In this document: piece by piece, positions 697 through 45,380 of the stretch
Position numbering within the stretch: the stretch's first letter is position 1
Layout: every line of letters begins with the position of its first letter
Assembly (NCBI RefSeq): GCF_026151205.1
Contig: NC_087079.1
Coordinates: 15,252,445-15,316,444, forward strand
Source: Bolinopsis microptera
Lineage: Eukaryota > Ctenophora > Tentaculata > Lobata > Bolinopsidae
DNA: 64,000 nucleotides
Reading direction: 5' to 3'
Notes under the pieces: model-generated
What the model was told of the DNA's origin: nothing
The model's database searches: none
What the model saw: the letters and a program-made list of their open reading frames with translations, nothing else
Program-made: the position numbers and the translations under genes

Positions 697-3600
697 GCTA
701 AAGCTTGGCTGGCTCAATGTGGAATTTATCTCCTGATAATGATAATTCAGAAGCTTTTAGTGTCTCCCCTGGTACTGATACCGTTCTGGACTAATGTAAG
801 TTTCTGTTAATGCTTGTTAATTCAAATTTGATTGCCATTGTTCGGAATAGCCCTAATTAGGTAATCTGTGACATAATATGACACAATTTTGATGCGTGAG
901 AGCACGTTTCCTTGATTTTTGTAGTGGATTTGTAGTGCTTTTCACCCCTGTAGTGCTTTTATGTTCCGGGGTAGGTGGGACATGTTTTAGTTAAAAAATG
1001 GGTTCTGCCTGTCCCAAACCATCATAAAAATCAAGTTTCGACCTCTCAACCCACTCGGGCCACTCCCAGGGGCCACGCCCATCCCAAAATGACCGAAATC
1101 CAGCTAAATCCAGACTTTAAAATCTTTACCCCTGTAGTGCTTTTATGTTCCGGGGTAGGTGGGACATGTTTTAGTTTAAAAATGGGTTCTGCCTGTCCCA
1201 AACCATCATAAAAATCAAGTTTCGACCTCTCAACCCACTCGGGCCACTCCCAGGGGCCACGCCCATCCCAAAATGACCGAAATCCAGCTAAATCCAGACT
1301 TTAAAATCTTTACCCCTGTAGTGCTTTTATGTTCCGGGGTAGGTGGGACATGTTTTAGTTAAAAAATGGGTTCTGCCTGTCCCAAACCATCATAAAAATC
1401 AAGTTTCGACCTCTCAACCCACTCGGGCCACTCCCAGGGGCCACGCCCATCCCAAAATGACCGAAATCCAGCTAAATCCAGACTTTAAAATCTTTACCCC
1501 TGTAGTGCTTTTATGTTCCGGGGTAGGTGGGACATGTTTTAGTTTAAAAATGGGTTCTGCCTGTCCCAAACCATCATAAAAATCAAGTTTCGACCTCTCA
1601 ACCCACTCGGGCCACTCCCAGGGGCCACGCCCATCCCAAAATGACCGAAATCCAGCTAAATCCAGACTTTAAAATCTTTACCCCTGTAGTGCTTTTATGT
1701 TCCGGGGTAGGTGGGACATGTTTTAGTTTAAAAATGGGTTCTGCCTGTCCCAAACCATCATAAAAATCAAGTTTCGACCTCTCAACCCACTCGGGCCACT
1801 CCCAGGGGCCACGCCCATCCCAAAATGACCGAAATCCAGCTAAATCCAGACTTTAAAATCTTTACCCCTGTAGTGCTTTTATGTTCCGGGGTAGGTGGGA
1901 CATGTTTTAGTTTAAAAATGGGTTCTGCCTGTCCCAAACCATCATAAAAATCAAGTTTCGACCTCTCAACCCACTCGGGCCACTCCCAGGGGCCACGCCC
2001 ATCCCAAAATGACCGAAATCCAGCTAAATCCAGACTTTAAAATCTTTACCCCTGTAGTGCTTTTATGTTCCGGGGTAGGTGGGACATGTTTTAGTTAAAA
2101 AATGGGTTCTGCCTGTCCCAAACCATCATAAAAATCAAGTTTCGACCTCTCAACCCACTCGGGCCACTCCCAGGGGCCACGCCCATCCCAAAATGACCGA
2201 AATCCAGCTAAATCCAGACTTTAAAATCTTTACCCCTGTAGTGCTTTTATGTTCCGGGGTAGGTGGGACATGTTTTAGTTAAAAAATGGGTTCTGCCTGT
2301 CCCAAACCATCATAAAAATCAAGTTTCGACCTCTCAACCCACTCGGGCCACTCCCAGGGGCCACGCCCATCCCAAAATGACCGAAATCCAGCTAAATCCA
2401 GACTTTAAAATCTTTACCCCTGTAGTGCTTTTATGTTCCGGGGTAGGTGGGACATGTTTTAGTTTAAAAATGGGTTCTGCCTGTCCCAAACCATCATAAA
2501 AATCAAGTTTCGACCTCTCAACCCACTCGGGCCACTCCCAGGGGCCACGCCCATCCCAAAATGACCGAAATCCAGCTAAATCCAGACTTTAAAATCTTTA
2601 CCCCTGTAGTGCTTTTATGTTCCGGGGTAGGTGGGACATGTTTTAGTTTAAAAATGGGTTCTGCCTGTCCCAAACCATCATAAAAATCAAGTTTCGACCT
2701 CTCAACCCACTCGGGCCACTCCCAGGGGCCACGCCCATCCCAAAATGACCGAAATCCAGCTAAATCCAGACTTTAAAATCTTTACCCCTGTAGTGCTTTT
2801 ATGTTCCGGGGTAGGTGGGACATGTTTTAGTTTAAAAATGGGTTCTGCCTGTCCCAAACCATCATAAAAATCAAGTTTCGACCTCTCAACCCACTCGGGC
2901 CACTCCCAGGGGCCACGCCCATCCCAAAATGACCGAAATCCAGCTAAATCCAGACTTTAAAATCTTTACCCCTGTAGTGCTTTTATGTTCCGGGGTAGGT
3001 GGGACATGTTTTAGTTTAAAAATGGGTTCTGCCTGTCCCAAACCATCATAAAAATCAAGTTTCGACCTCTCAACCCACTCGGGCCACTCCCAGGGGCCAC
3101 GCCCATCCCAAAATGACCGAAATCCAGCTAAATCCAGACTTTAAAATCTTTACCCCTGTAGTGCTTTTATGTTCCGGGGTAGGTGGACATGTTTTAGTTA
3201 AAAAATGGGTTCTGCCTGTCCCAAACCATCATAAAAATCAAGTTTCGACCTCTCAACCCACTCGGGCCACTCCCAGGGGCCACGCCCATCCCAAAATGAC
3301 CGAAATCCAGCTAAATCCAGACTTTAAAATCTTTACCCCTGTAGTGCTTTTAATGTTCCGGGGTAGGTGGGACATGTTTAGTTTAAAAATGGGTTCTGCC
3401 TGTCCCAAACCATCATAAAAATCAAGTTTCGACCTCTCAACCCACTCGGGCCACTCCCAGGGGCACGCCCATCCCAAAATGACCGAAATCCAGGGGGTCT
3501 AAATCCAGACTTTTAAATTCTTTACCCCTGTAGTGCTTTTATTGTTCCGGGGTAGGGTGGACATGTTTTTAGTTTAATATGGGTTCTGCTAGTCCCAAAC

Positions 3601-6600
3601 ATCATAATAATCAAGTTCTTCGACCTCTCAACCCACTCGGGGCCACCCAGGGCCACGCCCATCCCAAAATGGACCGAATCCAGATAAATACCAGACTCTT
3701 TAACATCGTTACCCCTTGTAGTGCTCTTATGTTTCCGGGGTAGGTGGGACATGTTTTAGTTTTAAAAAATGGGATTCTCCCTGTCCCAAACATCATAAAA
3801 ATCAAGTTTCGACCTCTCACCCACTTGGGCCACTCCCAGGGCCCACGCCCATCCCAAAATGACCGGAAATCCAAGCAAAATCCAGACTTTAAAATCTTTC
3901 CCCCTGTAGTGCTTTTATGTTCCGGGGTAGGGTGGGACCTGTTTTAGTAAAAAATGGTGTTCATGCCTGTCCCAAACCATTTCATAAAAAATCAAGTATC
4001 GACCTCTCAAACCCACTCGGGCCACTCCCAGGGGCCACGCCCAAGCCCAGAAATTGACCGAATCCATCTAAATCAGACTTAAAAATCTTTTACCCCTGTA
4101 GTGCTTTTATGTTCCGGGTAGGTTGGGGACATGTTGTAGTTAAATAATGGGTTCTGCCTGTCCCAAACCATCATAAAATCAAGTTTCGACCTCTCAACCC
4201 ACTTGGGCCACTCCCAGGGGGCCACGCCCATCCCAAAATGAACGAATATCCAGCTAAATCCAGACTTTAAAATCTTTACCCCTGTAGTGCTTTTTATGTT
4301 CCGGGGTAGGTGGGACATGTTTTAGTTAAAAAATGGGTTCTCGCCTGTCCAATCCATCATAGAAAAATCAAGTTTCGACCTCTCAACCCACTCGGGCCAC
4401 TCCCAGGGGGCCACGCCCATCCCAAAATGACCGAAATCCAGCTAAATCCAGACTTAAAATCTTTACCCCCTGTAGTGCTTTATGTTCCGGGGTAGGTGGG
4501 ACATGTTTTAGTTTTAAAAATGGGTTCTGCCTGTCCCAAACCATCATAAAAATCAAGTTTCGACCTCTCAACCCCTCGGGCCACTCCCAGGGGCCACCCA
4601 TCCCAAAATGACCGAAATCCAGCTAAATCCAGACTTTAAAATCTTTACCCCTGGTAGTGCTTTTATGTTCCGGGTAGTGTGGGACATGTTTTAGTTAAAA
4701 AATGAGGGGTTCAACTGTCCCAAACCATCATAAAAATCAAGTTTCTACCTCTCAACCCACTCACATCCTCAACCTTCCGAATGTAAGGTACGGACTTCAA
4801 AAACCAAAAACCGAAAAATATACAAAAGTCAAAGTCAGTGGCATACGTTGGCCTTAATAGCTCCGCTGTGTTTTACATTTGGAGAGCTGTTTGCTTGCAG
4901 ATGGCATACTGTACTTTCGGTTCGAGGATTCCGTCGTAAATATTGAAAAGTTCGAATATTTTAGACCTCGCCCATTCGATATTAAACACCTATATTGTTT
5001 TCTCTGAACATGCTGAACGCCTATTTTGTTTCAGAGACGGTAAGATTATGAAATGTTTGCATATGATCTGAAAACATGAGGCAAAACGGATTAGAAATGA
5101 AGAAGTTTATCAAGCATTTTCTGTATCTCGTTAACAACATTGACTGGGTGATATGTAACACACGACACCTTAATTGGGCACCCTTAACAATTCCATAATG
5201 TTCAACGAGGTAGTAGTAACGGGGGTCACCTGATCACGTGATTAGGTAAACCAATGGACCTGATCACACGTAATGAATAAACTCGTTATGCTTCATATCT
5301 CTGTCATCTGAGAAGCAGTTCTAATTTTTTTTTCAGGACAAACGTTATTCGAATGGCCAAACACAATTCAATAAAGTTTAGCTCGATTCGATTATCCAAA
5401 CTATCAAATAAATGCAAAAATGAACCTTCATCCGAAAAAAAATTAACTCGAATATTTATCGATTTGACAAATTCCTCGAACCAGTGGTAGTAGTAAGTCA
5501 TACCAGAAAGAATTATTACAAATTGGGCACTCAGTGACTGAGCTATTAAAGCCAACGGTATGCCCACTGACTTTTGGCCCACCCTGTATTTTCGGCTCAG
5601 AATGATCAGGGTAGCATGAAACATGAACAAAAGTAGTTTCCAGAAAAACTTTGTTTCGATATAGTTGTTTCGATATAAGTTCGATATACGATTTTGGACT
5701 CGAGGGTTCCCCTTTGTAATGCAGTCTTCGGAAGGCAGGCCTCCCCTTCGCATACGAGCTCGGAAGCGGGAGCTCTGCTTTCAGAGGTACGTATCGAGAA
5801 TGACTCGGACTGAAAATTTCCTAAGTCAAAATTTTCAAAGTTTTTCTGGAAACTACTTTTGTTCATGTTTCATGTTACCCTGATCATTCTGAGCCGAAAT
5901 ATTTTTTTCGTTTTCGAAGTTCGATATACGATTTTGGACTCGAGTGCTCCCCATTGTAATGCGATCTCGGAAGGCAGGCCTCCCTTCGCAATACGAGCTC
6001 GGAAGCGGGAGCTCTGCTTTCAGAGGTACGTATCGAGAATGACTCGGACTGAAAATTTTCTAAGTCAAAAATTTTCAAAGTTTTTCTGGAAACTACTTTT
6101 GTTCATGTTTCATGTTACCCTGATCATTCTGAGCCGAAAATATTTTTTTCGGTTTTCGAAGTTCGATATACGATTTTGGACTCGAGGGTCCCCCTTTGTA
6201 ATGCGATCTCGGAAGGCAGGCCTCCCCTTCGCAATACGAGCTTCCGAGCTCGTATTGCGAAGGGGAGGCCTGCCTTCCGAGATCGCATTACAAAGGGGAG
6301 CACTCGAGTCCAAAATCGTAGTTTAAAAATGGGTTCTACTTGTCCCAAACCATCATGAAAATCAAGTTTCGACCTCTCAACCCACTCACATCCACAACCT
6401 CCGAATGTAGGTACGGACTTCAAAAAACCCGAAAAAAATATTTTTGGCTCATAATGATTAGGGTAGCATACGTACCTACATTCGGAAGGTTGTGGATGTG
6501 AGTGGGTTGAGAGGTCGAAACTTGATTTTTATGATGGTTTGGGACAAGTAGAACCCATTTTTAAACTAAAACATGTCCCACCTACCCCGGAACATAAAAG

Positions 6601-9600
6601 CACTACAGGGATAAAGATTTTAAAGTCTGGATTTTAGCTGGATTTCGGTAATTTTGGGATGGGCGTGGCCCTGGGAGTGGCCTGAGTGGGTTGAGAGGTC
6701 GAAACTTGATTTTTATGATGGTTTGGGACAGGAGAACCCATTTAAAACTAAAACATGTCCCACTACCCGGAACATAAAAGCACTACAGGGATAAAGATTT
6801 TAAAGTCTGGATTTTAGCTGGATTTCGGTAATTTTGGGATGGGCGTTGCCCCTGGAGTGGCCTGAGTGGGTTTGAGAGGTCGAAACTTGATTTTTATGAT
6901 GGTTTGGGACAGGTAGAAACCCATTTTTAAACTAAACAGGTCCCACCTACCCTGGAACATAAAAGCACTACAGGGGGGTAAAGATATTTAAGTCTGGATT
7001 TGTAGCTGGATTACGGTAATTTTGGGATGGGCGTGGCCCTGGGGAGTGGCCTGAGTGGGTTGAGAAGTCGAAACTTGATTTTTATGATGGTTTGGGACAG
7101 GTAGAACCCATTTTAAACTAAAACATGTCCCACCTACCCCGAACATAAAAGCACTACAGGGGTAAAGATTCTCGATTTTGAATTTTACCAAGGATTTCAG
7201 TAATTTTGGGATGGGCGTGGCCCCCTGGAGTGGCCTGAGTGGGTTGAGAGGTCGAAACTTGATTTTTATGATGGTTGGGGACAGTTTAGAACCCATTTTA
7301 AAACTAAAACATGTCCCACCTACCCCGGAACATAAAAGCACTACAGGGGTAAGAGATTTTTAAAGTCTGGGATTTTAAGGATTTTAGCTGGATTTCGGTA
7401 ATTTTGGGATGGGGCGTGGCCCCTGGGAGTGGCCTGAGTGGGTTGAGAGGTCGAAACTTGATTTTTATGATGGTTTGGGACAGGTAGAACCCATTTTAAA
7501 ACTAAAACATGTCCCACCTACCCCAGAACATAAAAGCACTACAGGGGTTAAGATTTTAAAGTCTGGATTTTAGCTGGATTTCGGTAATTTTGGGATGGGC
7601 GTGGCCCCTGGGAGTGGCCTGAGTGGGTTGAGAGGTCGAAACTTGATTTTATGATGGTTTGGGACAGGTAGAACCCATTTTTAAACTAAAACATGTCCCA
7701 CCTACCCCGGAACATAAAAGCACAACAGGGATAAGATTTTAAAGTCTGGATTTTAGCTGGATTTCGGTAATTTTGGGATGGGCGTGGCCCCTGGGAGTGG
7801 CCTGGAGTGGTTGAGAGGTCGAAACTTGATTTTTATGATGGTTTGGGACAGGTAGAACCCATTTTAAAACTAAAACTTGTCCCCACCTACCCGCAGAACA
7901 TAAACGCACTACAGGGGTAAAGATTTTAAAGTCTGGATTTAGCTGGATTTTCGGTAATTTTGGGATGGGGCTGGCCCTGGGAGTGGCCCGAGTGGGTTGA
8001 GAGGTCGAAACTTGATTTTTATGATGGTTTGGGACAGGTAGAACCCATTTTTAAACTAAAACATGTCCCACTACCCTGGAACATAGAAAGCACTACAGGG
8101 GTAAAGATTTTAAGTCTGGATTTTAGCTGGATTTCGGTAATTTTGGGATGGGCGTGGCCCTGGGAGTGGCCTTGAGTGGGTTTGAGAGGTCGAAACTTGA
8201 TTTTTATGATGGTTTGGGAACAGGTAAGTAGACCCATTTTTAAACTAAAACATGTCCCACCTACCCGGAACATAAAAGCACTACAGGGGTAAAGATTCTC
8301 GATTTGAATTTTTACCAAGATTTCAGTAATTTTGGGATGGGCGTGGCCCCTAGGGAGTGGCCTGGAGTGGTTGAGAGGTCGAAACTTGAATTTTTATGAT
8401 GGTTGGGACAGTTAGAACCCATTTTAAAAACTAAAACATGTCCCACCTACCCCGGAACATAAAAGCACTACAGGGGTAAAGATTTTAAAGTCTGGATTTT
8501 AAGATTTTAGCTGGATTTCGGTAATTTTGGGATGGGCGTGGCCCCTGGGAGTGGCCTGAGTGGTTGAGAGGTCGAAACTTGATTTTTATGATGGTTTGGG
8601 ACAGGTAGAACCCATTTTAAAACTAAAACATGTCCCACCTACCCCGGAACATAAAAGCACTACAGGGGGTAAAGTTTTAAAGTCTGGATTTTAGCTGGAT
8701 TTCGGAATTTTGGGATGGGCGTGGCCCCCTGGGAGTGGCCTGAGTGGGTTGAGAGGTCGAAACTTGATTTTTATAATGGTTGGGACAGGTAGAACTCATT
8801 TTTAAACTAAAACATGTCCCACCTACCCCGGAACATAAAAGCACTACAGGGGTAAAGATTTTAAAGTCTGGATTTTAGCTGGATTTCGGTAATTTTGGGA
8901 TGGGCGTGGCCCCTGGGAGTGGCCTGAGTGGGTTGAGAGGTCGAAACTTGATTTTTATGATGGTTTGGGACAGGTAGAACCCATTTTAAAACTAAAACAT
9001 GTCCCACCTACCCTGGAACATATAGCACTACAGGGGTTAAAGATTTTAAAGTCTGGATTTTAGCTGGTTTTCGGTAATTTGGGATGGGCGTGGCCCCTGG
9101 GAGTGGGCCTGAGTGGGTAGAGAATTTCGAAACTTGATTTTTATGATGGTTTGGGACAGTAGAAACCCGATTTTTAAAACTAAAACATGTCCCACCTACC
9201 CCGGAACATAAAAGCACTACAGGGGTAAAGATTTTAAAGTCTGGATTTTAAGATTTTAGCTGATTTTGGGAATTTTGGGTGGGGTGGCCCCGGAGTGGCC
9301 CGAGTGGGGTTTAGAGGTCGAAAATTGATTTTAAGATGGGGTTTTGGGACAGGTAGAACCCATTTTAAAACTAAAAATGTCCCACCACCCCAAAACAAAA
9401 ACACTACAGGGGGTTAGATTTTAAAGCTGGATTTTAGCTGGATTTTGGTAATTTTTGGGGTGGGCGTGGGCCCCCGGGGGGGGCCCCGGTGGTTGAGAGG
9501 CGAAACTTGTTTTTATGATGGTTTTGGGGGCAGGGAGAACCCATTTTTAAAACTTAAAACATTCCCACCTACCCCCGGAAAAATAAAAAATACGGGGTAA

Positions 9601-12600
9601 AAGATTTTAAAATCTGGTTTTAAATTTTTGCTGGTTTCGGTAATTTTGGGTGGGCGGGCCCCCGGGGGTGGCCGGTTTGGGGTTTAGAGTCGAAAAATTG
9701 ATTTTATTGGTTTGGGACAGGAAAAAACCCTTTTAAAACAAAAAATTCCCACCACCCCAAAAATATAAGAGCAACTACAGGGGTAAAGATTTCAAAGTCC
9801 TGGATTTAGCTGGATTTTCGGTTATTTTGGGATGGGCGTGGCCCCTGGGAGTGGCCTGAGTGGGTTTGAGAGGTCCGAAACTAAACTTTGATGTTTATAA
9901 TGGTTTGGGACAGGTAGAACTCATTTTTTAACTAAAAACATGTCCCACCTATCCCCGGAACATAAAAGCAGCTACAGGGGTAAAGAGATTTAAAGCTGGC
10001 ATTTTAGCTGGATTTCGGTAATGTTTGGGATGGGCGTGGGCCCCTGGGAGGGGGCCTGAGTGGGTTGAGAGGTCGAAACGTGATTTTTATGATGGTTTGG
10101 GACAGGTAGAAACCCATTTAAAACTAAAACATGTCCCACCATACCCTGGAACATAAAAGCACTACAGGGGTTAAGATTTAAAGTCTGATTTTAGCTGATT
10201 TCGGTAATTTTGGGATGGGCGTGCCCCTGGGAGTGGGCCTGAGTGGGTAGAGATTTCGAAACTTGATTTTTATGATGGTTTGGGACAGGTAGAACCCATT
10301 TTTAAACTAAAACATGTCCCACCTACCCCGGAACATAAAAGCACTACAGGGGTAAAGATTTTAAAGTCTGGATTTTAAGATTTTAGCTGGATTTCGGTAA
10401 TTTTGGGATGGGCGTGGCCCCGGGGAGTGGCCTGAGTGGGGTTGAGGAGGTCGAAACTTGATTTTTATGATGGTTTGGGGACAGGGTAGAACCCATTTTA
10501 AACTAAAACATGTCCCACCTACCCCAGAACATAAAAGCACTACAGGGTTAAGATTTTAAAGTCTGGATTTAGCTGGATTTCGGTAATTTTGGGATGGGCG
10601 TGGCCCCTGGGAGTGGCCTGAGTGGGTTGAGAGGTCGAAACTTGATTTTTATGATGGTTTGGGACAGGTAGAACCCATTTTAAAACTAAAACATGTCCCA
10701 CCTACCCCGGAACATAAAAGCACTACAGGGGTAAAGATTTTAAAGTCTGGATTTTAAGATTTTAGCTGGATTTCGGTAATTTTGGGATGGGCGTGGCCCC
10801 TGGGAGTGGCCTGAGTGGGTTGAGAGGTCGAAACTTGATTTTTATGATGGTTTGGGACAGGTAGAACCCATTTTAAAACTAAAACATGTCCCACCTACCC
10901 CGGAACATAAAAGCACTACAGGGGTAAAGATTTTAAAGTCTGGATTTTAGCTGGATTTCGGTAATTTTGGATGGGCGTGGCCCCTGGAGTGGCCTGAGTG
11001 GGTTGAGAGGTCGAATCTTGATTTTTATAATGGTTTGGGACAGGTAGAACTCATTTTTAAACTAAAACATGTCCCACCTACCCCGGAACATAAAAGCACT
11101 ACAGGGGTAAAGATTTTAAAGTCTGGATTTAGCTGGATTTCGGTAATTTTGGGATGGGCGTGGCCCCTGGGAGTGGCCTGAGTGGGGTGAGAGGTCGAAA
11201 CTTGATTTTATGATGGTTTGGGACAGGTAGAACCCATTTTAAAACTAAAACATGTCCCACCTACCCTGGAACATAAAAGCACTACAGGGGTAAAGATTTT
11301 AAAGTCGGATTTTAGCTGGATTTCGGTAATTTTGGGATGGGCGTGGCCCCTGGGAGTGGCCTGAGTGGGTAGAGAGGTCGAAATTTGATTTTTATGATGG
11401 TTTGGGACAGGTAGAACCCATTTTAAAACTAAAACATGTCCCACCTACCCCGGAACATAAAAGCACTTCAGGGGTAAAGATTTTAAAGTCTGGATTTTAG
11501 CTGGATTTTGGTAATTTTGGGATGGGCGTGGCCCCTGGGAGTGGCCTGAGTGGGTTGAGAGGTCGAAACTTGATTTTTATGATGGTTTGGACAGTTAGAA
11601 CCCATTTTAAAACTAAAACATGTCCCACCTACCCCGGAACATAAAAGCACTACAGGGGTAAAGATTTTAAAGTCTGGATTTAGCTGGATTTCGGTAATTT
11701 TGGGATGGGCGTGGCCCCTGGGAGTGGCCTGAGTGGGTTGAGAGTCGAAACTTGATTTTTATGATGGTTTGCGACAGGTACGAACCCATTTTTAAACTAA
11801 AACATGTCCCACCTACCCCCGGAACATAAAAGCACTACAGGGGTTAAAGATTTTAAAGTCTGGATTTTAAGATTTTAGCTGGATTTCGGTAATTTTGGGA
11901 TGGGCGTGGCCCCTGGGAGTGGCTAGGGGTTGAGGGTCGAAACTTTATTTTTTTTATGGTTTGGGGCGGTAGAACTCATTTTAAAAAATAAAACTTCCCC
12001 CCTCCCGGGAATAAAAGCACTTCAGGGTAAAATTTTAAATTTTGAATTTTAGCTTGATTTCGGGAATTTTGGGGGTGGGGGGCCCCCGGGATGCCTGAGG
12101 GGGGGAAGGCGAAAATTGATTTTTATGAGGGGTTTTTTACATTAAACCCATTTTTAAATTTTTTTTAAAAATTCCCACCTACCCCGGAAAAAAAAGCACT
12201 CGGGTAAGATTTAAAGTCTGGATTTTTCTGGGTTTTGGAAATTTTGGGGTGGCGGGCCCGGGAGGGGCCCGAGTGGGGGTTTAGAGGTCGAAAATTTTAT
12301 TTTTTATGATGGTTTGGGGGAGAGAACCCCTTTTTAAAACAAAAATGTCCCCCCCTACCCCGGGAAAAAAAAGCACTACAGGGTAAAAAATTTTTAAAAA
12401 CGAATTTTTGCTGATTCGGTAATTTTGGGGATGGGCGTGGCCCCTGGGAGTGGCCTGAGTGGGGTAGAGAGGGTCGAAACTTGATTTTTATGATGGTTTG
12501 GGACAGGTAGAACCCATTTTAAAACTAAAACATATCCCACCTACCCCGGGAACATAAAAGCACTACAGGGGTAAAGATTTTAAAGTCTGGAGTTTAGCTG

Positions 12601-15444
12601 GATTTCGGTAATTTTGGGATGGGCGTTGGCCCCTTGGGGAGTGGCCTGAGTGGGTTGAGAGGTCGAAACTTGATTTTTATGATGTTGTTGGGACAGGTAG
12701 AACCCATTTAAAACTAAAACATGTCCCACCTACCCCGGAACTAAAAGCCTACAGGGGTAAAGATTCTCGATTTGAATTTTACTAGATTTCAGTAATTTTG
12801 GGATGGGCGTGGCCCCTGGGAGTGGGCCTGAGTGGTTGAGAGGTCGAAACTTGATTTTTATGATGGTTTTGGGACAGTTAGAACCCATTTTAAAACTAAA
12901 ACATGTCCCACCTACCCCGGAACATAAAAGCACTACAGGGTAAAGATTTTAAAGTCTGAATTTTAGCTGGATTTTCGGTAATTTTGGGATGGGCGTGGCC
13001 CCTGGGAGTGGCCCCTGGGAGTGGCCTGAGTGGGTAGAGAGGTCGAAACTTGATTTTTATGATGGTTTGGGACAGTAGAACCCATTTTTAAACTAAAAAC
13101 ATATCCCACCTACCCCGGAACATAAAAGCACTACAGGGGTAAAGATTTTAAAGTCTGGATTTTAGCTGGATTTCGGTAATTTTGGATGGGCGTGCCCCTG
13201 GAGTGGCCTGAGTGGGTTGAGAGGTCGAAACTTGATTTTTATGATGGGTTTGGGACAGGTAGAACCCATTTTAAAACTAAAACATGTCCCACCTACCCCG
13301 GAACATAAAAGCACTACAGGGGTAAAGATTCTCGATTTGAATTTTACCTAGATTTCAGTAATTTTGGGATGGGCGTGGCCCCTGGGAGTGGCCTGAGTGG
13401 GTTGAGAGGTCGAAACTTGATTTTTATGATGGTTTGGGACAGTTAGAACCCATTTTAAAACTAAAACATGTCCCACCTACCCCGGAACATAAAAGCACTA
13501 CAGGGGTAAAGATTTTAAAGTCTGAATTTTAGCTGGATTTCGGTAATTTTGGGATGAGCGTGGCCCCTGGGAGTGGCCTGAGTGGGTAGAGAGGTCGAAA
13601 CTTGATTTTTATGATGGTTTGGGACAGGTAGAACCCATTTTTAAACTAAAACATGTCCCACCTACCCCGGAACATAAAAGCACTACAGGGGTAAAGATTT
13701 TAAAGTCTGGATTTTAGCTGGATTTCGGTAATTTTGGGATGGGCGTGGCCCCTGGGAGTGGCCTGAGTGGGTTGAGAGGTCGAAACTTGATTTTTATGAT
13801 GGTTTGGGACAGGTAGAACCCATTTTAAAACTAAAACATGTCCCACCTACCCTGGAACATAAAAGCACTACAGGGGTAAAGATTTTAAAGTCTGGATTTT
13901 AGCTGGATTGCGGTAATTTTGGGATGGGCGTGGCCCCTGGGAGTGGCCTGAGTGGGTAGAGAGGTCGAAACTTGATTTTTATGATGGTTTGGGACAGGTA
14001 GAACCCATTTTAAAACTAAAACATGTCCCACCTACCCCGGAACATAAAAGCACTACAGGGGTAAAGATTCTCGATTTGAATTTTACCAAGATTTCAGTAA
14101 TTTTGGGATTGGCATGGCCTCTGGGAGTGGCTTGAGTGGTTCAAGAGCTTGGTCTTTGTGATGGTTAGGGATATCTACTACCTATTTAACCACCAAACAT
14201 TTTTCAAATACTCAGCAACACAAATCCCCTCAGGGCCCAGGGGTAAAGATTCTCATTCTGAATTTTTAGGGATTTGTCACAGATTTCAAGCTATTTGGGA
14301 TGGGCGGCCTGAGTGGGGTGGATGTGTTACTTAGATTTTCATATCTTATAAGTTTTATAAAAGTATAAGTACGAGCAGTTTATTGAGACTTCTGACTTCT
14401 ACTGTCGTAGATTCTACAATGATAAATATTGTAACGTACGTGCGGCGCGCAAAATCCACTACAAAATCCACTACAAAATTCAGGGAAACGTCTTCTGTGA
14501 TGCGTAAACAGGAACGCGCACAAGCGTTACACTACATGTTCTCGCGCTCTGGGCATAATTAGATAGCGGCGCGCGGCTTGCTTGTACGTTTTGCGCGCGC
14601 TCGTATTCGATCAGACGATCAGGTCATGCAGTCACGTCCGCGAAAGTCCCGTCAATCATCGCTGGTCGCTGTAATAGTGATATACTGCACGTTACTCACG
14701 TATCCATGCAACTGATCAGTTTAGGAGGCCGTTATTTAACAGCTTTGTTCTCGGACCCGTCGAAATGTGGTATAAACTGAGTTATTTTTTCTCGACTGTA
14801 CTTTTAAGTTGTATGTGACAAACACGAAGTCGGAAATACATTTCGGAAAATGAAACCGGGTTATGTTACAAAGTGACATGAACTGTATTAGTGGTTATCT
14901 GTGTAATTCTTCATTGAAAATGATAACTCCTTTAAACCACACTTCTACGTCACTTCGATGAGACCGTTAAAATAACCGAAATAAACGGACCGTATATCCT
15001 GAATAGAATAATCAGGCATTGTTTTGGCAAGCTGACATTTTCTAACTCTTCAGTTCCGGAAGTTTCTGTTCTCGCCGCTGAAAGGACATGGAAAGTTGGA
15101 GGTGGTCGTCGTAATGCTCATTGTCCCGCTCTTTGTCAACGCTTTCATGTTCTGGGTTCAGGTCAGTTAACAGATTGATATTCTTATGTTTTAAGGACGT
15201 TTCTGTGCAGATTTTATCTAGCTTGTTTTTATTTGTAACCGGCAGATTGTGAGTATGTAACCGCTAATGCAGATTGTGAGCCACTAACCGCTGCGCATAT
15301 TAAACTATTCTAATCCAAAATATTTGACAGGACAACATCCTGATGAGACGCCGAACCAGGACCCCCAGCACCCACATTGAAGCTAGGGTTAACTTGCTGG
15401 AGGCGGAACAAGTCGAACTTAGAGAGGTCCTTACTCCGACCTGA
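697..15444 (+). CDS. STIMATE: STIMATE/TMEM110-family ER membrane protein, copy A, exons 5-7 (partial)
   Basis: Three coding exons are visible. Exon 5 is 697-795, after ACTCAG and before GTAAGT. Exon 6 is 15054-15161, after CTCTTCAG and before GTCAGT. Exon 7 is 15331-15444, after TTGACAG, and ends in TGA. All junctions are phase 0. Exon 5 encodes AKAWLAQCGIYLLIMI and onward; exon 6 contains VVVVMLIVPLFVNAFMFWVQ; exon 7 begins DNILMRRRTR. These match the last membrane segments and the start of the basic tail of STIMATE, an ER protein known in vertebrates to promote STIM1 activation at ER-plasma membrane junctions. Exons 1-4 would be upstream of the window. Intron 5 is about 14.3 kb because of the satellite element at 898-14497. 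Relative to copy B at 36757-42790, exon 5 differs at three synonymous sites and exon 6 is identical. Function is inferred from the family. Confidence 0.85.
898..937 (+). repeat. Left terminal inverted repeat of the satellite element
   Basis: It begins GAGAGCACGTTTCC immediately after the TGATGCGT target duplication. It pairs with the reverse complement of 14457-14497 with a few mismatches and one indel. Its inner TGTAGTG motifs run on into the CCTGTAGTGCTTTT present in every satellite unit. Confidence 0.85.
940..4767 (+). repeat. Left array of the 184-bp satellite, plus orientation (about 20 units)
   Basis: The period is 184 bp: matching starts occur at 975, 1159, 1343, 1527 and so on. Units up to about 3180 are almost identical. 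The main variable site is TTAGTTAAAAA versus TTAGTTTAAAA, and it does not alternate strictly. From about 3190 small indels appear, and 3470-4340 is rich in them. Open frames of 60-100 codons recur in every unit on both strands because the unit is nearly stop-free in some frames; they are not genes. Confidence 0.95.
4768..5640. other. Unique core of the satellite element
   Basis: The first ~55 bp (a motif near ACATCCTCAACCTTCCGAAT) recur inverted at about 6390-6500. The rest is AT-rich, with no supported gene, RT or transposase motif. The sequence near 5520-5640 (GGGTAGCATGAAACATGAAC) is the inverse of the repeated block at 5850-5900 and 6090-6130. Confidence 0.6.
5641..6318. repeat. ~240-bp tandem repeats ending in a GC-rich hairpin
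   Basis: Blocks starting at the GATTTTGGACTCGAG motif recur at about 5691, 5931 and 6173. Each includes a run such as TCGGAAGGCAGGCCTCCC. The third block is followed by its own reverse complement: 6235-6318 mirrors 6172-6243, giving a potential hairpin with arms of about 70 bp. Open frames here exist on both strands and share this structure, so no gene is called. Confidence 0.8.
6319..6567. repeat. Inverted-repeat pivot between the two satellite arrays
   Basis: 6319-6417 (part of a satellite unit followed by CCACAACCTCCGAATGTAGG) is the reverse complement of about 6470-6567. A ~50-bp spacer lies between. This is the point where satellite orientation switches from plus to minus. Confidence 0.85.
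6468..14140 (-). repeat. Right array of the ~184-bp satellite, minus orientation (about 40 units)
   Basis: This is the same unit as the left array, inverted, with spacing of about 184-185 bp (for example CGAAACTTGA at 13411, 13596 and 13781). Sequence variants recur across units: some have GATTTTAAGATTTTAGCTGG, others ATTCTCGATTTGAATTTTAC. The stretches at about 9240-9780 and 11930-12430 are far noisier, with homopolymer gains and losses, and look like unpolished sequence rather than natural divergence. Confidence 0.95.
14141..14456. other. Decayed edge unit and unique right flank of the satellite element
   Basis: Positions 14141-14330 keep scattered satellite matches (GGGATGGGCGGCCTGAGTGG near 14300) in a much more diverged unit, as expected at an array edge. 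Positions 14331-14456 are AT-rich and unmatched in the window. No gene is seen. Confidence 0.6.
14457..14497 (-). repeat. Right terminal inverted repeat of the satellite element
   Basis: The reverse complement begins CAGAAGACGTTTCCC and aligns with the left end over about 40 bp. It is directly followed by the second TGATGCGT. Its outer CAG resembles hAT termini. Confidence 0.85.
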
Positions 15445-24457: not shown

Positions 24458-24530
24458 GCAAGCTCAAACTACAACGACGTCAACTAAAACTCAAACTACA
24501 TCAACTACAACTACGTCAACTACTGTGAGG

Positions 24531-26666
24531 ATGTCAAAGGACACACCATCATTTGATGGGACTGGTTATAAACGGTACCGCCAGCTTGCTAAGATATGGG
24601 CAACTGTATCAACGGTGTCAGAGGAACACAAAGCAATGATACTGATCATGTTTCTCAAAGACAAAGCATTAGACATCGCTCTAACCATAGATGAAGTACT
24701 TCTTAAGACCAAGAAGGCTGATGCTGAGCCACCTGAGACTAAAGTCGGTGTTGAGCTACTTATAGCCCAGTTAGATGAGATTTACCTAGAGAGTGATGAT
24801 ACTCTTGGAAAATATGAAAGATTTGAAAATTTAAAAAGAAACTCAGAACAGAGAATGACTGAGTTTATCCTGATTTTCGAGAGTCTAGAACGAGAACTGA
24901 AGACAGAAGGAGTGACACTTCCTGAACTAGTGCTGGCCTATAAATTACTAAAAGCTGCCAATCTGTCCAATGCAGATGAGAAGTTAGCTAGAGCCACCTG
25001 CACAGCTATGACAATGGAAGATATGAAGAAATCACTCATGAGATTGGCTGATTCCCAACTCAATAAATCCAAAGTAGAAGAATCTGACAGTCTTCCTATT
25101 AAAGTGAAAGCAGAGCCATGCTATCTAGCTTTAGACAATAGAAAACTTCCAACAGAAGCTGGTAAAAAAGAGACAACAGACTCAAATACTCTCCCAGAAG
25201 AGCAAATAATGTTCAATAGGAACAGAACTGGAAACAATGTTAGAGGAAAACAGAGACCTTTTGGTCAGAGGAATGACAACAGACAGGTCTGCTACGGGTG
25301 CTACTCTCCAGGACACTGGATCAGAGACTGCCCTCTTAGAGCTCCTTTCAGACAGCCGATGAACTTCCAAAGGCCGCCTTACCAGCAACACACCATGCCT
25401 AATAACCAACACTCAGGCTACAGACAAGGACCGCCCAACCCAGCCTATTACAACCAGCAGATTCCTTATTATCTGTCAGACATGATTCCCAACAATGAAG
25501 AGTTTTACGGATACAACCAAGAATACTATGAAGAACCTATGCCTACAGTGAAACCCATATTCTTCCAATGGAACGTCCGTCAAGAAGAAGAAGCTGCTTT
25601 TCTAGCCGGAGAAACTGTCAATAAAGCTTTGTTAGACTCAGGAGCAAGTAGAACAGTAGCCGGGGAAAACTGGTATTCATGCTTTCTAGATTCTCTAGAT
25701 GACGAGACAAGAAGCACTGTTAAAGAATTCCCAGCAGAAATCATCTTTAGATTTGGAGTAGGAACCCTAGAATCTTCTAAGAAAGTGATCATCCCAGTCA
25801 CAATTTGTACCCACAAAATTCGGCTTGAAGTACACATCGTTAACAGTGACATACCTCTTCTATTATCTTTGAAGTCAATGAAGTGCATGGGAGTACAACT
25901 TAATTTCGAGACAGACACCATTACCATCCGTGGAGAAGATTACAAGCTAGAGTTGACTAAATCAGGTCACTATGCGATCCCAATTCAGGAAGAAAACGTG
26001 ATGGTTCCAAAACAAGAAGCAGATAAGCAGATGAATAGTAAAGAGAGATCTCAAGCCAGAGCTCAAGAAACAAACTCTAATCATAATTCTACTCTAAGAG
26101 ACTTCAACATTCCAAATCTTGATCCTGAAGAGATAAGTGCTCAAGTAAAACCTGAGATCCAAACCATTACTAGAACGACAGATCAAGAAGAACCACAGGA
26201 AACAACAAACAACCTACCTGGTGGAACTGCAGAGCCTACAATAGTTGAAGTTAAAGACACTCCAGAAACAACTATTGAGAGAACTACTGAAGAAGTGAAA
26301 CAAACAAAGAAACCTCCAAAGGCAAGGAAACCTATGAAGAATAATGAAGGCTCGATAACTGCAGTAATTGAAGGAGACACAGTGGTATTCCAAGAACCTG
26401 ATTCGGATACATGGCACAAAGTTCAGCTTAAGTCTAGAGGATACACTGTCAACAGCATGAACAAGAACTACTGGAATGTCATTTCAGAAGACGGAAGTTT
26501 TTCCGGGGTCAATTTAGACAAAGTAGACTGGCTACTTGAGAAAGACCCTCCTGAACCTCCTCCCATAGCTGAACCCAATGGAAATGAAGAGAGTATCAAG
26601 TTTGCCGAGATGATGTCTGAAGAAGTTTTTGTCCTGAGAACAGTGCCAAGCACATACTACAACTAG
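24531..26666 (+). CDS. Gag-protease fusion ORF of the LTR element (711 aa)
   Basis: I chose the ATG at 24531 (MSKDTPSFDG). Residues 1-200 form a helical Gag-like region. A CCHC zinc knuckle, CYGCYSPGHWIRDC (C-X2-C-X4-H-X4-C), lies near residue 254. A retropepsin-type active site, ALLDSGASRTVAG, lies near 368, followed by LNFETDTITIRGEDYKLELT, as seen downstream of the protease in related elements. A Glu/Thr-rich linker then leads to a tail (WHKVQLKSRGYTVNS, YWNVISEDGSFSGV) that resembles the linker found between integrase and RT in full-length relatives. The absence of integrase, RT and RNase H suggests an in-frame internal deletion, so the product could package RNA only with enzymes from another element. 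No frameshifts are present. Confidence 0.88.
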   Translation: MSKDTPSFDGTGYKRYRQLAKIWATVSTVSEEHKAMILIMFLKDKALDIALTIDEVLLKTKKADAEPPETKVGVELLIAQLDEIYLESDDTLGKYERFENLKRNSEQRMTEFILIFESLERELKTEGVTLPELVLAYKLLKAANLSNADEKLARATCTAMTMEDMKKSLMRLADSQLNKSKVEESDSLPIKVKAEPCYLALDNRKLPTEAGKKETTDSNTLPEEQIMFNRNRTGNNVRGKQRPFGQRNDNRQVCYGCYSPGHWIRDCPLRAPFRQPMNFQRPPYQQHTMPNNQHSGYRQGPPNPAYYNQQIPYYLSDMIPNNEEFYGYNQEYYEEPMPTVKPIFFQWNVRQEEEAAFLAGETVNKALLDSGASRTVAGENWYSCFLDSLDDETRSTVKEFPAEIIFRFGVGTLESSKKVIIPVTICTHKIRLEVHIVNSDIPLLLSLKSMKCMGVQLNFETDTITIRGEDYKLELTKSGHYAIPIQEENVMVPKQEADKQMNSKERSQARAQETNSNHNSTLRDFNIPNLDPEEISAQVKPEIQTITRTTDQEEPQETTNNLPGGTAEPTIVEVKDTPETTIERTTEEVKQTKKPPKARKPMKNNEGSITAVIEGDTVVFQEPDSDTWHKVQLKSRGYTVNSMNKNYWNVISEDGSFSGVNLDKVDWLLEKDPPEPPPIAEPNGNEESIKFAEMMSEEVFVLRTVPSTYYN

Positions 26667-28508: not shown

Positions 28509-30173
28509 ATGTCTCCACACGATTTGGTTCCGATGAACTTTGGTATCCGGTTACTGGACTCACCGACACACAGTACCCTGGAGCTTATAGCAAAACAAAG
28601 AAAAGTAGTGAGAGCTAGTTCAGTTATCTTATCATTTAACAGTCCTGTGATAGATCACATGACCACAACTCTTCATATGACTAGTTTGAATATGGAAGAG
28701 TTCAGTGAGAAAGCTGTGAGATATTTTGTTCATGCTGCCTACACTGGGAAAACTCCACTTATCGCTAGAGATGTATTCAGAGATATTAATAAGTTGGCCA
28801 ACGTATTTGAAATGTCTTGGTTGGTGAGCCGATGTGTTGATCAGTTTAACCATATGGCTGGTACTATCCAAGAACCTTCATATCGAGACTTAGTTTTCTT
28901 ATTTGATGAAGCAGTTTATGTTTTATCTAACCTCAAATCTAGACAGTTAGTTGAGATTGCTCTTAAAAAGATCCAGTCACTGAATGGGGAGTCACAGCGG
29001 GATTTTATCTTCAGATATCTCCAAAACTTGACCTCTCTGTCTTGCCAACAACTAGATTTGATCATTGAGCTGACGAAAACTAATGTAGAATACATTGTAA
29101 AACCGATTACAGAACAAATTACTGCTAGTTTATCCAACCAGGGAACTTTGGATCTAACCAACTTCAAATATACTCTGGAAAACATTGATTTGAGTTATTG
29201 TCTTAAAAACAATATTCAGCTTTATGAGAGACTGTTTGGTATGTTAGAGGAACTGTGTGGTACAAATGTTGATTTGAAGTGGCTGCTTAGACTTCAAAGA
29301 AAATCTATTAAGGAGTCAACAACATCCAAGGAATTAATCTCTTCAACTGCCACCACTTCTGGAGTTACTCAGTGTCTTAGTGTCCGTAACATACCTTGTG
29401 CTACAGCTACACCAATAATACCAAATATGTTTCACACACTTAATACTACCTTGACATTTGATGAAGTTGTTGATTGGTTGGGTACATCTGACGAAGTTTC
29501 AAATTTCTGGATGTTCTTGGAGGGAATATGGACTTGGATGAGAGCTAATGAAGACACTCAAGTAAAAATTTCACCCAAGTTACGAAGAAAAGTTTGTGAA
29601 ATCAGAAAACAGCGGAAATGGAGAAAAGTTTCCGAAAATTTTCTTGAAAATCTTGTTCCCCTATCAGAATCTTCCTATAAATTTTTTCGAGGAGTAATAA
29701 CCTGTGAAGATCTTTGTACAGCTATGCTAACAGAAGCAGGATGGAAAATCACATTTACTGAAGAAATCAAGGATATTTTTTCCCTTCTGAAAGAAGAAAC
29801 TAAGATATCCTTTTTCAGCCATAGATTCCAAGGTTTTTCAAATTGTTCTAAACCAGGGAAATGTGGATTTATTCTAAAAACAGTACCTGCAAAAGAGCAT
29901 GCTAATTTCGTTCTCTCTACTGATCCCATTGATTACTTATACTCAGAAGAAATACATTATCATAATGATATAGATACTAAAGATTTACATCTATTAGTGC
30001 AATGGCGCAAAAAGCTAAAGATTTTCAACATGCACACCGGTCATTATCTTCCGATGAGCTGGGCTGGTAGACCTGTACAAGAGGATAATGGACTTCTTTG
30101 GAATACATTTCCAGTCCATGAATATGGAAAGGATGATACGTATGTTTTTTGTTTATTGTACCCAAATTTGTAA
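28509..30173 (+). CDS. BTB/POZ-domain protein, paralogue 1 (554 aa)
   Basis: This is an uninterrupted frame starting at the first ATG after an acceptor-like TTTCAG (28498-28503), so it is probably a single coding exon with an intron in the 5' UTR. Residues about 20-125 fit a BTB/POZ fold: short strands, then ASSVILSFNSPVIDHMTT, then EEFSEKAVRYFVHAAYTGK, where BTB proteins carry their A1/A2 helix and the conserved Y-T/S-G element. Residues 125-260 are helical and BACK-like. The C-terminal half is unrecognised, with a conserved KPGKCGFILKTVPAKEHANF block and LPMSWAGRP near the end. No kelch, MATH or zinc-finger domain is visible. BTB-BACK proteins often serve as Cul3 adaptors, but nothing specific is shown here. 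A close paralogue lies at 31849-33504. Confidence 0.85.
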   Translation: MSPHDLVPMNFGIRLLDSPTHSTLELIAKQRKVVRASSVILSFNSPVIDHMTTTLHMTSLNMEEFSEKAVRYFVHAAYTGKTPLIARDVFRDINKLANVFEMSWLVSRCVDQFNHMAGTIQEPSYRDLVFLFDEAVYVLSNLKSRQLVEIALKKIQSLNGESQRDFIFRYLQNLTSLSCQQLDLIIELTKTNVEYIVKPITEQITASLSNQGTLDLTNFKYTLENIDLSYCLKNNIQLYERLFGMLEELCGTNVDLKWLLRLQRKSIKESTTSKELISSTATTSGVTQCLSVRNIPCATATPIIPNMFHTLNTTLTFDEVVDWLGTSDEVSNFWMFLEGIWTWMRANEDTQVKISPKLRRKVCEIRKQRKWRKVSENFLENLVPLSESSYKFFRGVITCEDLCTAMLTEAGWKITFTEEIKDIFSLLKEETKISFFSHRFQGFSNCSKPGKCGFILKTVPAKEHANFVLSTDPIDYLYSEEIHYHNDIDTKDLHLLVQWRKKLKIFNMHTGHYLPMSWAGRPVQEDNGLLWNTFPVHEYGKDDTYVFCLLYPNL

Positions 30174-31848: not shown

Positions 31849-33504
31849 ATGTCAAAAGTGTTTGTTCCAATGAATTTTGGTATCCAGTTACTGGACTCTC
31901 CGACCCACAGTACCCTGGAACTAAAGGCAAGTCAGGGGGCAGTGATACCAGCCAGTTCAGTGATCCTATCTTTCAACAGTCCTGTGATAGATCACATGAC
32001 CACAACTCTTCATCTGACCAGTGTTGATATGGAGGAGTTCAGTGAGAAAACTGTTAGATATTTCGTTCATGCTGCCTACACTGGGAAAACTCCACTTATT
32101 GCTAGAGATGTATTCAGAGATATCTATAAATTGGCCAATGTTTTTAAGATGTCTTGGTTGGTGAACAGATGTCTTGATCAGTTTGAAAATTATATGACTG
32201 AAGCTATTCAAGAAGCTTCGTTCAAAGATTTGATTTTCTTATTTGATGAAGCAGTTTATGTTTTATCTAACCTCAAATCTAGACAGTTAGTCGAGATTGC
32301 TCTTAAAAAGATCCAGTCACTGAATGGGGAGTCACAACGGGAATTTATCTTCAGATATCTCCAAAACTTGACCTCTCTGTCTTGCCAACAACTAGATTTG
32401 ATCATTGAGCTGACAAAAACTAATGTAGAATACATTGTAAAACCTATTACAGAAAAAATTACTGCTAGTTCATCTAACCAGGGAACTTTGGATCTAACCA
32501 ACTTCAAATATACTCTGGAAAATATTGATTTGAGTTATTGTCTTAAAAACAATATTCAGCTTTATGAGAGACTGTTTGGTATGTTAGAGGAGCTGTGTGG
32601 TACAAATGATGATTTGAAGTGGCTGCTTAGACTTCAAAGAAAATCATGCAAACAGGCAGTGCTACCCAAGGAATCTGTGACTTCAATTGCCAGCACATCT
32701 GGTGTTGCTCAATTGTCTGACAGTAACATAATACCAAATATGTTTCATACTCTTAACACTAGCTTAACATTTGATGAAGTTGTTGATTGGTTGGGTACAT
32801 CCGACGAAGTTTTGAATTTGTGGATGTTTTTTGTGGGAATATGGACTTGGATGAATGCCAACGAGGGGTCTCCAGTCAAATGTTCACCAAACTTTCTGAA
32901 CAAGGTTCGTGAAATTAGAAAAAAACGGAAGTGGAGAAAAGTGTCTAAATCATTTCTATGTAGTCTTTTGCATAAATCAGATCCTTCGAGTGAATTTTTC
33001 TATGCAATCACGTCCTGTGAAGATCTTTGTGAGACAGGTTGGAAAATAATGTGTAATAAAGGTATTATAATCAAAGACATTTTTTCTGTTTTTGAACAAG
33101 AGATTAAGTTACACTTTCTCTGTCAAAGTGTCAAGGCTTTGTCGAATTGTACTAAACCAGGGAAATGTGGATTTGTCCTAAAAACAGTACCTGCTAAAGA
33201 GCATGCTAATTTTGTTCTCTCTACTGACCCCAATGATTACTCAGAGGAAATACATTATCATAATGAGATAAGTGCTAATATATATATATATATATATATG
33301 CATCTCGTAGTAGAATGGAGTTGCAGACAAGAAAGGTGGGACGAGTTTCCGTTGGGTAATTATCTTCCGATGAGCTGGGCTGGAAGACCTTTATACCAGA
33401 ATAATGAAATTCTTTGGGATACATTTCCATTGCCATGGACATTCTATTCGAAGAATGACCGCTGCAGCTGCTGTTTCAAATTATTCTTCCCAAATTTGGA
33501 TTGA
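31849..33504 (+). CDS. BTB/POZ-domain protein, paralogue 2 (551 aa)
   Basis: It has the same architecture as the gene at 28509. A start ATG follows an acceptor-like TTTCAG. The BTB region is at residues about 15-120 (SSVILSFNSPVIDHMTTTLH, VRYFVHAAYTGKTPLI), followed by a BACK-like helical region and a conserved C-terminal block (KPGKCGFVLKTVPAKEHANF, LPMSWAGRP). Nucleotide identity with paralogue 1 is uneven: very high over about 32240-32640 and clearly lower on both sides. A (TA)10 microsatellite at about 33279-33299 sits inside the frame and encodes Ile-Tyr repeats (NIYIYIYMH), yet the frame stays open to the end. Function beyond BTB-mediated oligomerisation or Cul3 adaptor potential is unknown. 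Confidence 0.85.
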   Translation: MSKVFVPMNFGIQLLDSPTHSTLELKASQGAVIPASSVILSFNSPVIDHMTTTLHLTSVDMEEFSEKTVRYFVHAAYTGKTPLIARDVFRDIYKLANVFKMSWLVNRCLDQFENYMTEAIQEASFKDLIFLFDEAVYVLSNLKSRQLVEIALKKIQSLNGESQREFIFRYLQNLTSLSCQQLDLIIELTKTNVEYIVKPITEKITASSSNQGTLDLTNFKYTLENIDLSYCLKNNIQLYERLFGMLEELCGTNDDLKWLLRLQRKSCKQAVLPKESVTSIASTSGVAQLSDSNIIPNMFHTLNTSLTFDEVVDWLGTSDEVLNLWMFFVGIWTWMNANEGSPVKCSPNFLNKVREIRKKRKWRKVSKSFLCSLLHKSDPSSEFFYAITSCEDLCETGWKIMCNKGIIIKDIFSVFEQEIKLHFLCQSVKALSNCTKPGKCGFVLKTVPAKEHANFVLSTDPNDYSEEIHYHNEISANIYIYIYMHLVVEWSCRQERWDEFPLGNYLPMSWAGRPLYQNNEILWDTFPLPWTFYSKNDRCSCCFKLFFPNLD

Positions 33505-36756: not shown

Positions 36757-42790
<6,034 letters not shown>

Positions 42791-43417: not shown

Positions 43418-45380
<1,963 letters not shown>

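Follow-up and report, generated by a model that had tools for sequence, protein, structure and literature searches.

The idea that transposons breed satellites is old, but clean cases are few. Foldback, Tetris and Galileo share their layout with the family of elements that we describe here from the ctenophore Bolinopsis microptera. Tetris (TIR-220) of Drosophila virilis is a non-autonomous foldback element with tandem repeats of about 220 bp, variable in number, in its TIRs. It makes 8-10 bp duplications, its repeat resembles part of the outer TIR, its transposase was not found, and it has a small relative, DAIBAM (PMC4079207). In Galileo, binding of the THAP transposase to sites in the tandem TIR repeats was shown at the bench (PMC3688188). 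Satellite-like arrays also occur as dispersed parts of Cg_HINE, the non-autonomous Helentrons of oysters, although there the repeats are central and inverted arms are absent (PMC7492417). In Xenopus, the MITEs miDNA4 and Xstir are short non-autonomous DNA transposons in which a satellite monomer was born (PMC9659126). We found no description of such elements in ctenophores in the open-licence literature that we searched; loop-anchor proteins of ctenophores have been described, with a GC-rich motif (PMC12221973).

Our locus is the window C8:15252445-15316444, the whole stretch of 64,000 nucleotides that was analysed, and the searches covered the B. microptera genome (264.65 Mb, 232 contigs). 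The window contains no N bases. The features around the element are as follows.

697-795, plus strand: STIMATE exon, 5' of the insertion (PF12400, 21.7 bits, narrowly missing the cut-off of 22; exon ends read by hand)
890-897: left target-site duplication, TGATGCGT
898-943, plus strand: left terminus, 46 bp, with motif GTAGTGGATTT at 920-930
944-4762, plus strand: left arm, made up of about 20.8 satellite units of 184 bp (TRF, BLAST)
4763-6499: centre, with a partly palindromic 243-bp-type repeat block at 5677-6242 that is common to other copies
6500-14171, minus strand: right arm, made up of about 41.2 units of the same 184 bp, inverted relative to the left arm (TRF, 6499-14139; BLAST)
14140-14497, minus strand: right subterminal segment and right terminus
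14498-14505: right target-site duplication, TGATGCGT
15084-15167, plus strand: STIMATE exon, 3' of the insertion (PF12400, 29.3 bits)
39963-39970: empty site, one uninterrupted TGATGCGT in the second STIMATE copy (self-comparison)

The element spans 898-14497 and is 13,600 bp long as assembled. An earlier note on this DNA had described it as built almost wholly of satellite, which holds for its share (about 84%, or some 62 unit-equivalents) but not for its layout, since there are two arms and a 1.7-kb centre rather than one array. The opposite orientations of the two arrays make them inverted arms as in foldback elements. The centre is free of the satellite except for a unit fragment at 6319-6387 (BLAST), and its two longest ORFs had no Pfam match. 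The termini had been put at about 40 bp and inverted. They are indeed inverted, but imperfectly so, reading GAGAGCACGTTTCCTTGATTTTTGTAGTGGATTTGTAGTG and, on the other strand, CAGAAGACGTTTCCCTGAATTTTGTAGTGGATTTTGTAGTG, which differ from the first base on. At the right end GTAGTGGATTT occurs twice on the reverse strand (14465-14475 and 14453-14463).

Exons matching PF12400 lie on both sides of the element, which places it in an intron of STIMATE; a further PF12400 exon (38.8 bits) lies just outside the window, upstream. A second, partial STIMATE copy is found 39 kb downstream of the first, and homology between the copies continues upstream, beyond the start of the window, for at least 534 bp with 99.4% identity. 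When we compared the window with itself, 1-897 aligned with 39074-39970 (97.3%) and 14498-15310 with 39963-40770 (98.2%). The two alignments overlap by exactly the 8 bases 39963-39970, so these are the empty site. The two copies are either a tandem duplication or two haplotypes joined in the assembly, and the empty site is valid under both. The earlier claims of a perfect 8-bp duplication with an uninterrupted site in the second copy, and of a defined mobile unit inside a gene intron, are thus borne out by the duplication, the empty site and the flanking exons.

Other elements and genes lie nearby. In the second STIMATE copy there is another DNA transposon (40771-42637). It has the 8-bp duplication AACTATTC at 40763-40770 and 42638-42645, its ends consist of repeated CGACATCTGTCC-type motifs, and one of its ORFs has a FLYWCH zinc finger. 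A 720-bp G run of 95% purity lies at 43418-44137. A transposon nested in the copy at C10:10909391, which also has an 8-bp duplication, ends in a terminal run of C (52 by TRF), so these G/C runs may be expanded transposon ends. The window also carries a 713-aa ORF at 24525-26666, gag-like with a weak zinc-knuckle match, and tandem intronless BTB-domain genes at 28509-30173 and 31849-33504. The BTB genes have many relatives in Mnemiopsis and other records, and the protein of the first has a 73% match in a Bolinopsis microptera record.

Beyond the window, we counted 86+81 genome matches to the 27-base terminus at up to three mismatches, whereas the reversed pattern gave 0+0. Exact matches to 18-mers from the ends numbered at least 97 (left) and at least 87 (right) among those listed, while reversed controls of the 18-mers with up to two mismatches gave 2+7 and 17+17. 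For pairing we used 100 listed places for each of the two 18-mers, out of 110 and 117. This yielded at least 74 facing end pairs less than 30 kb apart, 218 to 21,099 bp long, where random placement would be expected to give 0.6. Duplications were tallied over 74 rows, namely 73 of the 74 facing pairs (C2:22984016 was left out) and C3:2558069, with its right end supplied from a further listing of ends. Read at both junctions, 44 of the 74 have perfect 8-bp duplications, all 44 different, and 30 do not; among pairs of at least 1.3 kb the count is 41 of 52. A check proposed earlier was to look for a series from few to many units, each with 8-bp duplications, and the 44 perfect cases form such a series from 570 bp to 21.1 kb. 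Their letters have no strong consensus, with T at position 7 in 21 of 44.

We defined five subfamilies, A-E, by terminal sequence. Perfect duplications occur in 17/23 A, 5/8 B, 5/8 C and 16/17 D pairs (43/56 together), in 1/17 E pairs, and in 0/1 outside the subfamilies; in two A pairs (C8:16380405 and C93:4328) the apparent duplications are offset by one base. The same 46 left-terminal bases are found in 15 of the 17 A copies with perfect duplications. The E copies have recurrent flanks, CTGCTCGG on the left in 16 of 17 (one shifted by a base) and CTACGTTA on the right in 12, and so they seem to be carried inside another repeat. We read 37 of the 74 copies in full. Inverted arms are present in all seven fully read A copies and also in B, C and D copies (C3:10227563, C7:8437594, C2:22440992, C3:845868), while a single arm orientation is seen in E copies, C4:9114303 among them, and in the B copy at C2:11519535. 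The content of small members (0.3-1.3 kb) ranges from part of one unit to several units, and the 218-bp member has no match to the satellite unit. The satellite places listed, which are part of 620, form 18 clusters by eye. Seventeen of these lie inside an end pair, counting three pairs completed from a further listing of ends, and one lies beside a single end; we saw no free satellite array among the places listed. With these counts we are nearly certain that the window element is one copy of a mobile, foldback-like transposon family.

Several copies have features of their own. The 17.8-kb copy at C10:14092801-14110582, with the perfect duplication TAGTGCAT, contains a receptor gene fragment (C10:14100500-14104700; LDLa and 7tm_1, both slightly below the Pfam cut-offs). 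Over 700 bp this fragment is 99% identical to C10:2606358, one of its 23 matches in the genome, and on that identity the copy has probably captured a host gene. At C5:13629799, 13630124 and 13630449 the right end and flank of one copy occur three times with a 325-bp period, which is a tandem duplication across the junction. The copy at C7:13825218-13837744 is a hybrid whose left end is A-type and whose right end is D-type; it has no duplication and probably arose by recombination between two elements.

The arms vary widely in length. The fully read A copies have left/right unit numbers of 2.2/3.1, 3.6/6.6, 10.3/12.4, 12.6/15.6, 11.6/9.4, 2.6/21.7 and 20.8/41.2. We compared copies with perfect duplications whose right 170 bp show no more than one difference. 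In none of the 43 such pairs were the lengths equal, and in 39 they were over 1 kb apart; identical right ends occur in three A copies of 7.1, 10.8 and 19.7 kb. Since near-identical right ends did not go with equal length in these comparisons, copy length evolves faster than sequence, be it during or after transposition. Nested inserts account for part of the length differences elsewhere (C10:10909391, C2:11382810). We rejected one candidate for growth of a single insertion, C2:11519535 (559 bp) against C2:11382810 (6,681 bp), which have common flanks, as the right end of the longer one contains foreign DNA. Copies longer than 10 kb make up 13 of the 44 with perfect duplications. This fits long copies that go on moving and, equally, growth after insertion; the authors of Tetris suggest that larger arrays may disrupt movement (PMC4079207).

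Units of the left and right arms are 97.7% alike outside the motif described below, and both types are common to different copies. Neighbouring units are more alike than distant ones (98.2 against 96.9% in left arms, 94.7 against 91.2% in right arms), and the nearest neighbour of a unit lay within the same element in 83.5 of 276 cases, against 19.6 expected. Left-arm units taken from different elements are 97.5% alike, as much as distant units within a single element (96.9%), and homogenisation by element is therefore partial. The order of unit variants common to copies amounts to just one run of three distinct variants.

The ends and the units share a motif. An 11-base motif, usually present twice or more per end pair, reads GTAGTGGATTT in A (61/63) and C (27/29), GTAGGGGATTT in B (25/27) and GTATGCGATTT in D (68/68). 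Every satellite unit has a single such motif close to its start. That the motif next to the terminus belongs to the satellite unit had been noticed from the window, and across subfamilies the two also vary together. The three bases after GTA differ by subfamily (GTAGTG, GTAGGG or GTATGC, with the cores GTG, GGG and TGC), and the core in the unit is that of its own terminus in 276/279 A, 48/51 B, 41/42 C and 44/48 D units, a total of 409/420, against 5/33 units of E. These counts cover the available copy sequence and the units that fit the search pattern.

Outside the motif, the first left units of D are 95-97% B-like (5/5). Of the remaining 11, ten are 88-93% A-like, with one nearly as B-like, and the outermost right D unit is about 77% identical to both A and B. 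All 16 D units nevertheless have GTATG. C unit bodies are 91% identical to B and 83-86% to A, and yet their core is GTG. The simplest reading of these alignments is that the motif changed together with the termini on three occasions or more, and did so on two unit lineages. We also considered whether the motif is exceptionally conserved within subfamilies and rejected this: its 12-mer ranks 10, 7, 31 and 82 of 174 in A, B, C and D, which counts against strong purifying selection.

We believe that, taken as a whole, this is probably a non-autonomous, foldback-like cut-and-paste family with arms that act as banks of binding sites. For the arms in particular, we lean slightly towards amplified banks of putative transposase-binding sites, judging from sequence comparison. 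The motif in termini and units would be the putative site of a transposase acting in trans. Unit number would shift fast through local tandem duplication and loss, by unequal exchange or slippage, while recognition would hold the motif of the unit and that of the terminus in step. When the terminal motif changed in a subfamily, its units would follow, even where their bodies come from different lineages. A site that is read by the transposase in both places would best explain why units and termini covary. We read the satellite as a homogenised array of putative transposase-binding sites, as has been proposed for Galileo and Tetris. Several observations count against the explanation: the members with one arm orientation, the 30 of 74 without a perfect duplication, the partial homogenisation by element, the unexceptional conservation of the motif within subfamilies, and a search for a transposase that found none.

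Genome profile searches with PF05699, PF10551, PF21787 and PF18758 found no transposase for this family and no autonomous copy; a gene of another kind could lie in the 37 copies that were read in part. That the family is a Mutator-like foldback, or P/Galileo-like, has in our judgement close to an even chance. The genome has 88 MULE matches (PF10551), but none of them lies inside an end pair; the P-type profile PF21787 had no match in the genome, although the control genomes were silent too, and the same was true of KDZ (PF18758). The duplication length of 8 bp is at the edge of the Mutator (MULE) range of 8-11 bp, and it also occurs in the element at 40771-42637 and in the insert nested in C10:10909391. 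The motif resembles the P transposase site, with 8 of 10 bases, and we use this as a lead only. In the published assignments, most foldback elements go to Mutator and Galileo goes to P (PMC4079207, PMC3573991).

Alternatively, the satellite could be carried along passively: slippage would lengthen the arms, and the motif, seeded or converted from the terminal repeats of the subfamily, would have no role in movement. The motif at the unit start resembles the terminus, which makes a common origin likely, its conservation within subfamilies is unexceptional, and a few conversion events followed by homogenisation could yield the covariation. However, C units, like D units from either body lineage, match their own termini and not their body relatives, and the E copies, which are the ones passively carried, have lost the match (5/33, a single lineage and thus one case). 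We consider the passive account unlikely, though it deserves to be taken seriously.

The earlier note called the element hAT-like, and this fits by the 8-bp length only. The duplication pattern nTnnnnAn is typical of Ac-type hATs, and hAT ends begin YARNG. That pattern occurs in only 2 of our 44 perfect duplications, and the ends begin GAGAG and CAGAA, neither of which is YARNG, although each is one base off that consensus. The genome does contain hAT domains (PF05699; 150 scored matches of 365 candidates), but none of the 150 is inside an end pair. Two are found less than 25 kb from an unpaired end (C6:20328475, C9:12535978), a number that chance would allow, with about 0.7 expected by our estimate. 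An 8-bp duplication does not by itself make a hAT, since P elements also produce 8-bp duplications (PMC7776569) and two other elements here have them. We find membership of the hAT superfamily doubtful. Finally, although the array lengths are those of the assembly, we give practically no credence to the idea that a common free satellite array, or an artefact of assembly, fell between similar sequences by chance, as it is contradicted by 74 facing pairs against 0.6 at random, 44 different duplications with the same ends, an empty site in a window without N, and listed satellite clusters that lie inside end pairs or, once, beside a single end.

Returning to the foldback-like family with its putative binding-site arms, we can now set it beside the known systems. 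With Tetris it has in common the non-autonomous foldback layout, the variable number of tandem repeats and a unit that resembles the outer terminus, and DAIBAM is like the small Bolinopsis members. Tetris differs in having three structurally complete copies, TIRs of at most 1.7 kb and repeats that also occur as free satellite (PMC4079207), whereas the Bolinopsis family has arms of several kb, 44 copies with perfect duplications and no free array among the listed places. Galileo is similar in its foldback-like TIRs with internal tandem repeats, its subfamilies, its chimeric copies and its variable TIR length; it differs in its 7-bp duplications, in TIRs that contain two or three repeats and reach about 1.25 kb, and in copies that code for transposase (PMC3688188, PMC3573991). 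Unlike miDNA4 and Xstir, the Bolinopsis satellite forms inverted arms with tens of units that are still between intact ends. The novelty compared with known foldbacks is in the scale, the number of copies with intact duplications, the host phylum and the motif covariation; such covariation over four subfamilies is, next to the part of the Tetris account cited here, new to us.

Tens of insertions with perfect duplications are thus present in one genome, together with four parallel subfamilies, members from small to giant, and an empty site. With this material one can trace copy by copy how a satellite grows, becomes homogenised and is lost. A bolder version, which we offer tentatively and rate at somewhat less than an even chance, is that the satellite is an adaptive organ of the element: an expandable array of putative binding sites, tied in sequence to the terminal motif. 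Each of the GTG, GGG and TGC subfamilies would form a separate lock-and-key pair with a different transposase variant, and unit number would tune movement or help a short motif to mark the ends in a large genome. Selection on the element, rather than chance slippage, would then have driven the birth of the satellite, and even copies whose arms measure 10-20 kb would have kept their mobility. The covariation of unit and terminal motif offers a testable reason for why satellites arise inside transposon ends, which is that they may be selected as arrays of binding sites.
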